Below are positions 2,391-34,600 of a DNA stretch of 64,000 nucleotides, one piece after another; within the stretch, counting starts at the first letter, position 1, and the number at the start of each line of letters is the position of its first letter. The DNA lies in assembly GCF_964204645.1 (NCBI RefSeq), contig NC_134027.1:21688485-21752484 (forward strand), written 5' to 3'. The notes under the pieces are model-generated. The model did no database searches. It was not told the DNA's origin and saw only the letters and a list, made by a program, of their open reading frames with translations. The DNA comes from Tubulanus polymorphus. Lineage: Eukaryota > Nemertea > Palaeonemertea > Tubulaniformes > Tubulanidae. Position numbers and translations under genes: made by a program.

Positions 2391-2603
2391 ATGGAAATAC
2401 AGGCTAGTGGCGTAGCCAATCACGTTTGGAACACTGGTCATCGTATTAATTTTGATAAAACTGAAATTATTTATACTTCCAGCAATTACACTAAACGCCA
2501 CACAGTTGAGTCTGCCCTAATTACTCGTCACTCAGATATTAGTACCAATTTGAATAATTCCCTTCCTTCTAAGTATATTACTTCATGCCTTGCCAAACAC
2601 TAA
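2391..2603 (+). pseudogene. GIY-YIG endonuclease C-terminus (5'-truncated Penelope-like ORF)
   Basis: The frame contains HVWNTGHRINFDKTEIIY, then YTKRHTVESALI and a short tail to a TAA at 2601-2603. The H...GH.I.FD...I pattern followed by R...E.ALI matches the second half of the GIY-YIG domain of Penelope-like elements, and the Glu of VESALI would be the metal-binding residue. The GIY and YIG motifs and the whole RT are missing upstream, so this is a fragment. Confidence 0.65.
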
Positions 2604-2682
2604 TTATTTACTCACTCACCAATTTACTCAATTAACCTGTTTTCCTCTGTATACATATACCCCTGTTTTTAGTCAATATCTC

Positions 2683-2729
2683 ACACCTGACGATGATCTC
2701 TAGGGTGAGATCGAAACGTCGTATTTTTA
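2683..2729 (+). ncRNA. Hammerhead-ribozyme-like motif (copy 1)
   Basis: CTGACGA (2687-2693) fits the CUGANGA core. GATCTC pairs with GAGATC across a TAGGGT loop (stem II), and GAA plus ACGTC follow. The ACGT before the putative GUC cleavage site is self-complementary, as in short-stem-III hammerheads thought to act as dimers. One extra U lies between core and stem II, which is not canonical. In this copy stem I is weak (CA/GU only), so activity is doubtful. Confidence 0.4.
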
Positions 2730-2803
2730 AATTTTAGATTGTTTCAATAAATAAATTCTCGATTTTAGATTTCTTTTAATTTGTAAATAGTGGGTTTTTT
2801 ATC

Positions 2804-2860
2804 TTATCACTATGGTGGATGATTGAGGATTTACCCATACGGGTAACTTTTTGATTCAGT
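2804..2860 (+). repeat. Short fragment matching the LINE at 3.8 kb, next to the Penelope tail
   Basis: CTTATCACTATGGTGGATGAT at 2804-2824 matches, with one difference, the antisense of the LINE fragment at 3797-3820. The Penelope-like copy may therefore have inserted into an older LINE copy in the opposite orientation. Confidence 0.35.
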
Positions 2861-3299
2861 ACATGAAACTGGGCCCAGATCAATTTCCCTGAAAAAAGCA
2901 CTATCATTTGATTTTATTAAAAAATAATTTTCTGATTTCTGGTTACCTTCTTGTTTAAAAGCAGCCGGCCTAACTGACGGCCTATAAATTTATCTTAGAC
3001 CATCATTGACTTTTCAAATGTATGTATGTAGGCTATATTTATTTTATTATTGTGACATGTAGTTATAAGTTTCTTTTTTTTTTCGAAATTTTTTATACAA
3101 ACACATATATTTTTCGACACTACCCAGCCCTCAACAGGCTTATAAGTCACCAATCATACTAATTAAATTTAACGACAGATAGATTCAAGTGGTACCGAAA
3201 ATACATAAACTCCTTTTACTCCAACATTGTTCGATAAAAGTTGCTAGAGTAATTTGATAGTTAGCCATTAATATTTGAAACTGTCATTGTTTTGTCATC

Positions 3300-3972
3300 T
3301 CTTGGAAGCCTGGTACCTGCTGTGACATATCAACAAAAAGTTTATGCCGTTCTTGTTTGTATTTCTTACATGACATAATAAAGTGAAATTAATCTTCAAC
3401 GCAGGCTCCAGGTCTACAATAAGTAACATATGCGTTCCTCAACCCTTTTACCCCTAAACCGACCCAATTCTATTTCCAAACCTAGGACACCACGCCTTAG
3501 CTGTGCTAATAAGCTTCTCTTCTTTCTTGACATAAATTTCATAATATAGTTTTCAGCCCCGAAAGTATTCTTAAATGTAATATACGTGCGTAATTTTGGT
3601 TTATTATTAACTTCAGAAATCCATCGCTCGCTAATTGATAATTCAATACACCTTTGTGCGTACTTCATATCAACTCGTTGTAAATTATCTATGAAGTCAG
3701 TATTTAAACCGAGGCTTCGACATAAGTTTCTGAAATTTCGGAACCACCCAGTAGTATTCAAATCACGTAATTGGAGAAATGTACGTTTGGTGAATCTATC
3801 ATCCACCATAGCGATAAGTCTATCCCAGAGAGGATAAATTTCAAAATAATGCTTATAGGCCTACTTTGCTGGATACCATCCGAATTCACCCTGCATTGCC
3901 GCAATGGGGGTTAATGACCCCACACCGAGAAAAAATCTAATGGCTCTAGTTTGCACCCTTTCTATCAGTTTA
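3300..3972 (-). pseudogene. Decayed LINE (non-LTR retrotransposon), ORF2 3' end
   Basis: The minus-strand translation reads RVQTRAIRFFLGVGS, then QGEFGWYPAK, an in-frame stop, WDRLIAMVDDRF, and later KRSLLAQLRRGVLGLEIELGR. After a frameshift comes CRPGACVED, another stop, and FHFIMSCKKY. This order (RA.R.FLGV, then LR.G...LEIE.GR, then C...C..VED..HF...C) is the C-terminal zinc-knuckle region found after the RT of many LINEs. At least one stop before MVDD and a frameshift near 3414 show it is dead. Confidence 0.75.
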
Positions 3973-31650: not shown

Positions 31651-34600
31651 CTGAAAATACAATTTGTACAATCACTTCACTCAGTAAAATGTTAAAAACA
31701 AGAGGGTTCTTTGGTTCCCAGTATTGCAACAGGATTGCCACTTTAATTCGCTTTGCTTTCTTCCCGACTATTCCCTGACATGCCTCAGTCAAATACGTAA
31801 AACACAGATGGAAACTGTTTGATTTACGCGCGAACTAGCAATCTCAACAAATATTTCCCTGTCCGGACTGATTTTTAGCTTCTTTTTACAAAATTCACTG
31901 ACTAAGCCCCTGACTTTTTTAAAGAAAAGAAAATTCTTCGACTTCTCCCTGATTTCCAGGAAGTGAAAATTATAATCAAAGCACCAATTCCCTAGGCATC
32001 CATTATTGAATAGTACGATAACCCGACTCAAACGTGGTGAACGGATAAAAAGATTAAAACCCACTATCTACAGATTAAAAGAATTTGAAATCAAGAATTT
32101 ATTTATTCGAAAAATCTAAAATATATAATAAACACGAGGTTACGATCTCACTCTTAACCCGTTCTCCTCTGTATATATACCCCTGTTTTTAGTCAATATC
32201 TCACACCTGACGATGATCTCTAGGGTGAGATCGAAACGTCGTGTTAATTATATATTTTAGATTGTTCGAATGAATAAATTCTTGATTTTAAATTCTTTTA
32301 ATCTGTAGATAGTGGGTTTTAATCTTTTTATCCATTATTGAATTTCTCACGGTAAGATCATTGGGAATCAGTGAAGAAGACTACGTTATTTACCAGGTTC
32401 TCGATAAGAATTCGCTATCGTCTATATACTCGGCCCACATGGCGAATTCAGCTCCGAGAAATAATTTAGTGTCGATCGCCCTTCCTGAAAAAAAAAATAA
32501 ATCATTTAAAATCAAATAAAACCTAAATGAAGATCAATTTTCGACACCTGAAACTGGGATCACATGAACGTTTTTGACCCAGGCTAAATTTGGCATTTAA
32601 TGCATTGACGCATTTGATGAACAAATGATTTATGTGTGAATGCCCGCCCTCTCTTATTAAGAATATGCTAAATCTGATTCGGTCTGGTCCGGGCCAAATC
32701 ATCCGTGTAATTGTGTGATTGTGCTTCATCTCATGTCTTGCAAAACTGATAAAACATTTTCACTGGCATTGCCGACCATATTGTATAACTACATTTCCTA
32801 AATTTACTAGCCCAACAGCCAATCAGGGAGACAAATGCACAACACGTGACATTCAAAATACAGTCCGAAATACTAGCCATCTATTTACTAGGTCATTTAC
32901 ACCAATCAATCAGATGAACCATTATTTCAGTGGTTATGTAAGCAAATTTGTATCCTATACGCTACCTAAACTCAGTTTCGGTAACCACCTAATTGCATGG
33001 AAAAAAATCTGGTTCCAACTGTATCCATTTAGGCATACTTTACTGTAAAATTACAAAAATTTCTAATTGCCTATTTCTCAAAATTGAAGGAGTTTCGGCA
33101 TTTTGCTCAAATTAAAGGAGTGTCAAGCACCTTTAGCAGTGTGGTAGACAATGAAATGTCCTCATTATTAAAGCTTCCACTAAAATCTTACACTTCAATA
33201 AAGTTTACAGAACCCAGAGAAAAAAACCAGGTAAATAATGTAATTTTCAACCAAAATATGTCTTTATTTATTGCCTAGAAACACATCATTTTATATTCAT
33301 GTTACCACGCATATAACGTCATTATGACGCTTTGTGTGGTTTGTTTATTTTGTTAATTTCCTTGTTTTTTGTGAAATAAACTCATTTTGGTTAAAAAAAA
33401 ACCTTTAGGCTAAAAAAAATTGATACCTTGTTTCTCTGCTCTGCTGAGCTTAAATGTTGACCCGGCCGGCCGCCTATCTACCCTATACATTACTTTTTTT
33501 GAAATCATGATCTATTTTACCATAACAGACCTGGCCGCTATAGAAATGAACTGTTAACAAATTCTATCATATTTTACAAAAATGACCCGGCCGCTGCGGA
33601 GAAACAAGGTATCATTTTTGTTTAGCCTTAGTTGTCTGAATGAAGGAGTCAACCTGTATCATTTTCTACATACATTTATGCATAGGTAGACCATCAATAA
33701 TATCCGCATAAAACTGATCAAAATCACGGGGGTTTGACTAATTCATTCGAAATCTGAGTCTGACAGTTTCACAATCTGAACTCAATTCAATAAATACAAC
33801 GCCTGTGTAATCAATTGAAAATGAACTCAAAATTAAATCTAAAACCAAATTGCCTCATTTTCATTACCTTCGTTGAGCGGATCGCATAGATAAAATCTCT
33901 GCCACTCGATCCCATAACTGAAATGGTCGAGGTACCAACAAGACGAGAATATAGCTCTCATTTTCTGTTGAGTAACGCGTTCGACATCGGCTGAACTTCC
34001 CATCCATACCTGCACTATAGTATCAGGGTTCAGCTGTAAGTAAATATACCGGCATTATTATCGCATCATTTATCATAAGTTTCTTAACTAAAAAAGTACA
34101 TGTGTATGATACAAAAATACAGTCTATTGTATAAAAGAAGGAGTTACGTTGAAGCATTTCCGCATTATAGAGTGTAGTCAAGTAAATGGACAAAATAACC
34201 CAACAGGAAAACGAACAATGTATGAAAATACAAGGACTAGAAAATGCATTCCAGTTCCTGTATTTTCCAATATGTGGTATTCCCTGTATATTCCAGTCAT
34301 GGACGTTGATTTCATTTTCCAATTTTCCCGGGAAATCGAAGCGGGGTAACCCAGAGCCTCTAGTGATCCAGGCAGAATATTGCCGAATCCTCGCTTCCTT
34401 GCGTTGCTGGTATCCCATTGAATTCTTTTTTTAATGTTAAGTGAAAAAAGATTCGTCCGGTTCTACCGGGATATATTTTGTTCCTTCCTGGAACTTATAT
34501 CTTCCCGGAATAACTTCCTGAATATTTTACGACTGTTATGATCCTACGCACCTCAACGGCTTTATCAAATACTTCCTGCCAGACGATGTTACCAGCTTTC

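Follow-up and report, generated by a model that had tools for sequence, protein, structure and literature searches.

The window, a stretch of 64,000 nt of the Tubulanus polymorphus genome (contig NC_134027.1, positions 21,688,485 to 21,752,484), carries a short fold-back insertion in an intron of a minus-strand gene. The splice sites of this intron read as a donor GT at 32393-32392, some 50 bases from the element, and an acceptor AG at 31652-31651. One exon translation on the minus strand matches Pfam GH20 at E 0.052, below the cut-off, and another has the beta-hexosaminidase subunit beta as its best PDB match (E 8.9e-6), so the exons read as beta-hexosaminidase, in agreement with an earlier note on this DNA that had placed the element in a hexosaminidase intron. 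The same note had described a 14-bp direct repeat and inverted arms of about 100 bases. Both are present: the repeat, ATCCATTATTGAAT, lies at 31998-32011 and 32330-32343 and is the target-site duplication (TSD) of the element, and the arms, at 32040-32154 and 32222-32336, are 115 nt long, 93% complementary and separated by 67 nt. Folded as RNA, 32012-32329 has an energy of -151.4 kcal/mol, whereas 100 shuffles average -54.1 (z -21.8). The features of the insertion, and of a second family copy in the window, are as follows.

31651..32393, minus strand: hexosaminidase intron holding the insertion, 743 nt (splice sites read from the sequence, exon translations)
31998..32011, no strand: left TSD copy, 14 bp (repeat search)
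32011..32044, minus strand: 34-nt tail, the left arm's outer end (read from the sequence; T32011 is also in the TSD)
32011..32154, minus strand: left (tailed) arm, with its inner end within hammerhead loop II (alignment with other copies)
32154..32329, plus strand: right (tail-less) arm with promoter-like stretch, complete hammerhead and 3' body (alignment)
32172..32179, plus strand: TATATATA, TATA box, beginning 31 nt before A32203, the presumed start (read from the sequence)
32203..32244, plus strand: minimal type I hammerhead motif, presumed cleavage after C32240 (layout, genome patterns, covariation)
32330..32343, no strand: right TSD copy, 14 bp (repeat search)
2395..2807, plus strand: second family copy, with an endonuclease frame end (2403-2603), promoter-like stretch, hammerhead (2687) and tail-less end

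The two arms meet head to head at 32154. The tail of the window element recurs at one end of other copies, and the right-arm alignment continues 7 nt into the TSD, where ATCCATT is common to element and target. The left arm retains no more than an altered 3' half of the hammerhead, so no complete hammerhead lies in the sense direction of the gene here; the whole motif is on the plus strand and the hexosaminidase gene on the minus strand, the antisense arrangement that had been claimed. Within 32172-32343 the TATA box and the presumed start are retained and directed antisense through the hexosaminidase exon that has its 3' edge at 32394. For the second family copy, a TSD and a left arm were searched for and neither was found.

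The hammerhead motif of the window is composed of stem I (ACAC 32203-32206 with GUGU 32241-32244), the core CUGACGA (32207-32213), an extra U (32214), stem II (GAUCUC 32215-32220 with GAGAUC 32227-32232), and a 3' part of GAA (32233-32235), ACGU (32236-32239) and C32240. The CUGANGA core, the GAAA and the NUH cleavage site that define a type I hammerhead are all present. The layout first proposed for it stands in its stems, core, GAA and ACGU; the GUC triplet, which had been placed after the ACGU, is formed by the last two bases of the ACGU together with C32240. Minimal type I hammerheads of Penelope-like elements were reportedly described by Cervera and de la Pena (2014) and Luense et al. (2017). 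The window motif resembles these in its CUGANGA, stems I and II, GAAA, absent helix III, and self-complementary ACGU, a sequence with a role in the hammerhead dimer. A review covers the class (PMC6155905). The motif departs from the class by one extra base before stem II, which falls within the one or two nucleotides already known at this position (PMC10085705). The search with Rfam models that had been suggested returned no hammerhead at the gathering threshold anywhere in the window, and none in 31900-32450 up to E 10, which is the outcome we would expect for a motif without stem III.

To place the motif in its genomic context (267.8 Mb), we searched for the pattern CTGANGATGATCTCN{2,16}GAGATCGAAACGT, which occurs at 567 places (288 + 279) and at none in a backwards-read control, so the pattern does not arise by chance. 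A second pattern, which excludes the first-but-one stem II base pair of the window's family (family A), revealed 225 further places, again with none in the control; among the first 100 matches listed, these included mutated family A copies and, more often, sister families with GGCUAAC/GUUAGCC (family B), GGCUGUU/AACAGCC and GGCUUAC/GUAAGCC. The 72 distinct stem combinations were reduced to 15 representatives differing in at least 6 of the 24 stem positions, some of which are damaged copies. In these, 112 of 150 cells are paired, against a mean of 87.2 and a maximum of 107 in 2000 shuffles, which ignore relatedness; the first stem II pair was set by the pattern used for the search. Stem I shows compensatory changes across families (ACAC/GUGU, CCAC/GUGG, AUUC/GAAU, CUUC/GAAG); it has just 2 bp in family B and is weaker still in L118 and L122, and in several cases stem II has defects as well. 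The covariation test named in the earlier note thus came out positive, with compensatory changes in both stems. Its idea that the extra U might define a subtype fared less well. The extra base is found at all 567 and 225 places, where both patterns require it, and a pattern with stem II directly after CUGANGA gave 18 places (control 1), at least nine of which belong to the same families and have G in place of the extra base. Judged from these patterns, the extra base is the rule in this genome and not a mark of the window copy.

The family is of Penelope type, as had been assigned. Locus L037 contains a 468-aa open frame with an RVT_1 match (E 3.4e-11) and YVDD, followed by the hammerhead unit, and L112, which covers this place at greater length, has a 547-aa frame whose GIY-YIG-like end lies about 95 nt before the hammerhead. 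This endonuclease end scores 17.6 bits against PF01541 (E 0.005; cut-off 22.6), matched nothing in a PDB search up to E 10, and includes GVYKIP..IYFGETGR, which we take to be a typical GIY-YIG motif. In the reverse complement of L112, the copy opens with a piece that perfectly repeats, in inverted orientation, part of its own frame (nt 3095-3192 and 3579-3676) and resembles a twin-priming scar. At the tandem locus L106, an endonuclease frame end is followed by a unit with hammerhead and tail and, a few bases on, by an ATG and a 249-codon stretch, an order that makes the unit the leader of the element. The unit would thus be the 5' leader of a Penelope-type element, with TATA box, start, hammerhead, two 3' end points and ATG in succession. 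The features of Penelope-like elements found here are the RT frame tied to the unit (not in the window fold-back), the pLTR tandem of L106, the tail (about 34 nt in family A and about 36 nt in family B) and the TSD. An element with both pLTRs was not obtained: L113 has no unit upstream of the frame, and L106 gives the 5' junction.

Among 97 family A units, the 5' end of the right arm lies 0-9 nt upstream of CTGA in 54, most commonly at A(-4) (16 units), and 22 of the 97 run up to the template's upstream end, as expected of copies made from read-through RNA; the units were selected by an intact hammerhead, and right-arm 5' ends inside the motif are invisible. Together with the TATA box, these ends of motif-selected units point to a presumed transcript start at the hammerhead's first base. 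Copies with the whole motif came from RNA left uncut at the presumed site (after C32240 in the window).

Much of this architecture is shared with elements of the Penelope/Poseidon type, such as Poseidon of Anolis (PMC11167929) and the Penelope families of Adineta vaga (PMC3846280): the frame with RT and GIY-YIG-like parts, inverted as well as tandem pLTRs, the latter with a TATA box and a hammerhead, a 30-40 bp tail, an AT-rich target and a TSD. Here the unit reads as an untranslated leader with the ATG just after the tail (L106), whereas the lizard ORF starts inside the hammerhead (PMC11167929). Element and motif are both of a known kind; what is new is a quantitative rule for the ends of the fold-backs.

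The family A units behind this rule came from 111 loci, from which L008, L020 and L034 were left out as repeats of L006, L019 and L033, as were copies without an intact motif (several early matches) and units too near the locus end. The 18 family B loci comprise L114-L117, picked as head-to-head pairs, and 14 others chosen by motif alone. L115 also holds, at about 484-601 and directly beside its fold-back, a tRNA-like stretch that resembles a SINE. The 3' ends of the 97 family A units fall at two points about 34 nt apart, with 51 tail-less, 41 tailed and 5 other; these 5, whose 3' ends are unclear, were kept out of the two-end table. Exact TSD-like repeats of at least 9 nt flank 45 of the 97 units, compared with 2 of 97 controls with mispaired flanks. 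The TSDs have a median length of 13 nt (42 TSDs of at least 10 nt) and an AT content of 0.72, against 0.65 nearby.

A left arm scored above the null in 47 of the 92 classed family A units. By script, 32 of these combine a tail-less right arm with a tailed left arm, 13 a tailed right arm with a tail-less left arm, one is tail-less at both ends, and one lacks the outer end of its left arm. The doubly tail-less case, L024, was re-read by eye, and its left arm opens with the tail and has an internal deletion. L019 and L033 were seen twice and are counted once, so that the 47 left arms represent 45 insertions. The outer ends are complementary in 44 of 44 family A insertions with both ends classed, the window copy included, and in 11 of 11 of family B, and independence of the two ends is rejected for family A alone (Fisher p 1.3e-10). 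Every examined fold-back in which both outer ends could be classed has the tail on exactly one arm. One copy of each family (L060 in A, L137 in B) has lost the outer end of its left arm. In 44 of 45 insertions of family A and 11 of 12 of family B, outer ends lie at either point, within a tolerance of some 8-10 nt.

The inner ends, in contrast to these fixed outer ends, vary: those of the 47 left arms range from -4, the template limit, to +118. They cluster to some degree, with 9 of 47 at +56 to +59 and 9 of 47 at +15 to +19 from CTGA; the latter cluster may come from a short sequence in common with the 5' end of the other arm. The left arms of L072 and L010 barely exceed the tail, and L013 has a few tail bases, below the score threshold. 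A peak of ends at the cleavage site was sought among the left arms, whose selection did not depend on the motif, and only 2 of 47 end there (+36/+37). The exact motif lies on the tail-less arm in 31 cases and on the tailed arm in 11 (p 0.003, L019 and L033 left out), a bias that is only suggestive because tail-less arms start 34 nt nearer the hammerhead. To see whether one RNA gave rise to both arms of an insertion, the arms were compared. Arms of the same insertion have a median similarity of 0.961 (n=33), against 0.927 between insertions (n=398), but in only 4 of 33 insertions does an arm match its own partner best. Indels of at least 4 nt distinguish the arms only in L019 and L102, and one or both of their states occur in no other locus. 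In family A, no left arm turned up within the 330 nt searched for 45 of the 92 classed units (27 of them tailed and 18 without a tail), and in family B 6 of the 18 loci show none. Single-arm copies flanked by TSDs also occur, tailed in L017 and L021 and tail-less in L083. Two-ended products are thus not the sole kind.

Anatomy, family, TSD, fixed outer ends and variable inner ends are direct observations, and in light of them we consider it probable that the window element is a short dead insertion of a Penelope-type 5' leader, made by reverse transcription primed at both nicked strands. The element protein would nick an AT-rich target on both strands, with about 13 nt between the nicks, and the 3' end at each nick would prime reverse transcription inside the RNA leader. 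This leader would begin with the first base of the hammerhead, where transcription presumably starts, and reach to the two end points just before the ATG. A distal start at one end would yield the tailed arm and a proximal start at the other the tail-less arm, and the two cDNAs would extend toward the 5' end, stop at different points and be joined head to head, in the window at 32154. A Penelope-like protein of a lizard has been shown in vitro to nick both strands and extend them, with reverse transcription beginning at either of two internal sites on the borders of the tail (PMC11167929). Such a reaction would produce just what the window element shows, namely a left arm with the tail, a right arm without it, the junction at 32154 and the 14-bp TSD. 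The hammerhead would be a passenger in the window insertion, and in the parent element it may, as a putative ribozyme, trim tandem transcripts. The lizard relative cleaves only with its protein, cleavage is dispensable for its insertion in vitro, and unprocessed RNA is its main substrate (PMC11167929), with which the few left-arm ends at the cleavage site agree.

Self-priming, in which a cDNA or antisense template folds back and copies itself into head-to-head arms, was proposed for rotifer Penelope copies from palindromes at inverted junctions (PMC3846280). Some loci here might be read in this way, as small inverted 5'-end pieces occur at a few junctions (L086, L027) and the truncated 5' end of L112 bears a perfect 98-nt inverted piece. 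It predicts arms that match beside the junction and outer ends that may be absent, whereas the outer ends are fixed (44/45 and 11/12) with variable inner ends, and the left arms of L072 and L010 consist of almost nothing but tail, that of L013 of a few bases. Fixed outer and variable inner ends fit priming at both strands and disfavour self-priming, which we regard as improbable. The many copies with long inverted arms and TSDs would also suit a MITE-like or snap-back unit that is itself mobile and copied whole by a DNA transposase. Such a unit should keep its junction, yet inner ends vary by copy, no large set with one identical junction was seen among the 47 left arms, the arms differ by one fixed 34-nt piece, and the hammerhead unit also stands at the end of RT-coding copies, so we give this reading hardly any weight.

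A type I hammerhead inside a repeat of a few hundred bases recalls metazoan retrozymes, small non-autonomous elements spread via ribozyme-cut circular RNA, which co-occur with Penelope-like elements (PMC7229834). The units here, unlike those retrozymes, are flanked by TSDs and often have two inverted arms, and their motif is minimal where that of the retrozymes is canonical (PMC7229834). They are single or head to head, none of 71 loci has two intact motifs on one strand and hence small head-to-tail repeats, and the 2 of 47 left arms ending at +36/+37, a count from which motif-selected right arms are excluded, also speak against circles cut by the ribozyme; a retrozyme origin is extremely unlikely. 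A question apart is whether the hammerhead layout merely reflects conservation of the leader, as a by-product without catalytic role in this genome. The empty Rfam search, the short stem I of family B and its still weaker form in L118 and L122, and insertion of the relative without cleavage in vitro (PMC11167929) lend this some appeal. Against it, the families have all retained the core and the two stems, the latter through compensatory changes, and we consider it rather unlikely.

Priming at both strands leaves the single tail to be accounted for. In vitro, the start site is chosen without difference between the strands (PMC11167929), so an exclusive single tail needs an extra rule. Tentatively, and with somewhat less than even confidence, we suggest that the start sites are mutually exclusive, one per strand, because the two polymerases of a dimeric particle sit in a row on one leader, with the leading, tail-less one usually going further. 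If true, this row-loading would account both for one tail per insertion and for the longer tail-less arm. Start-site exclusivity within a single insertion would be new. The tail was described as optionally present at one of the inverted pLTRs (PMC3846280), whereas the fold-backs examined here carry it at exactly one end, not optionally as in the known Penelope-like elements. In a survey of the literature that covered parts of the sources and lacked some key papers, a tail at exactly one end of every fold-back is nowhere stated.

The integration route of Penelope-like elements is an open question, and the two published ideas on their inverted copies predict different ends. The 55 two-ended fold-backs classed here are recorded integration products, whose fixed outer ends, variable inner ends and one tail each favour priming at both target strands, and the added rule of one start site per strand is directly testable with purified enzyme.
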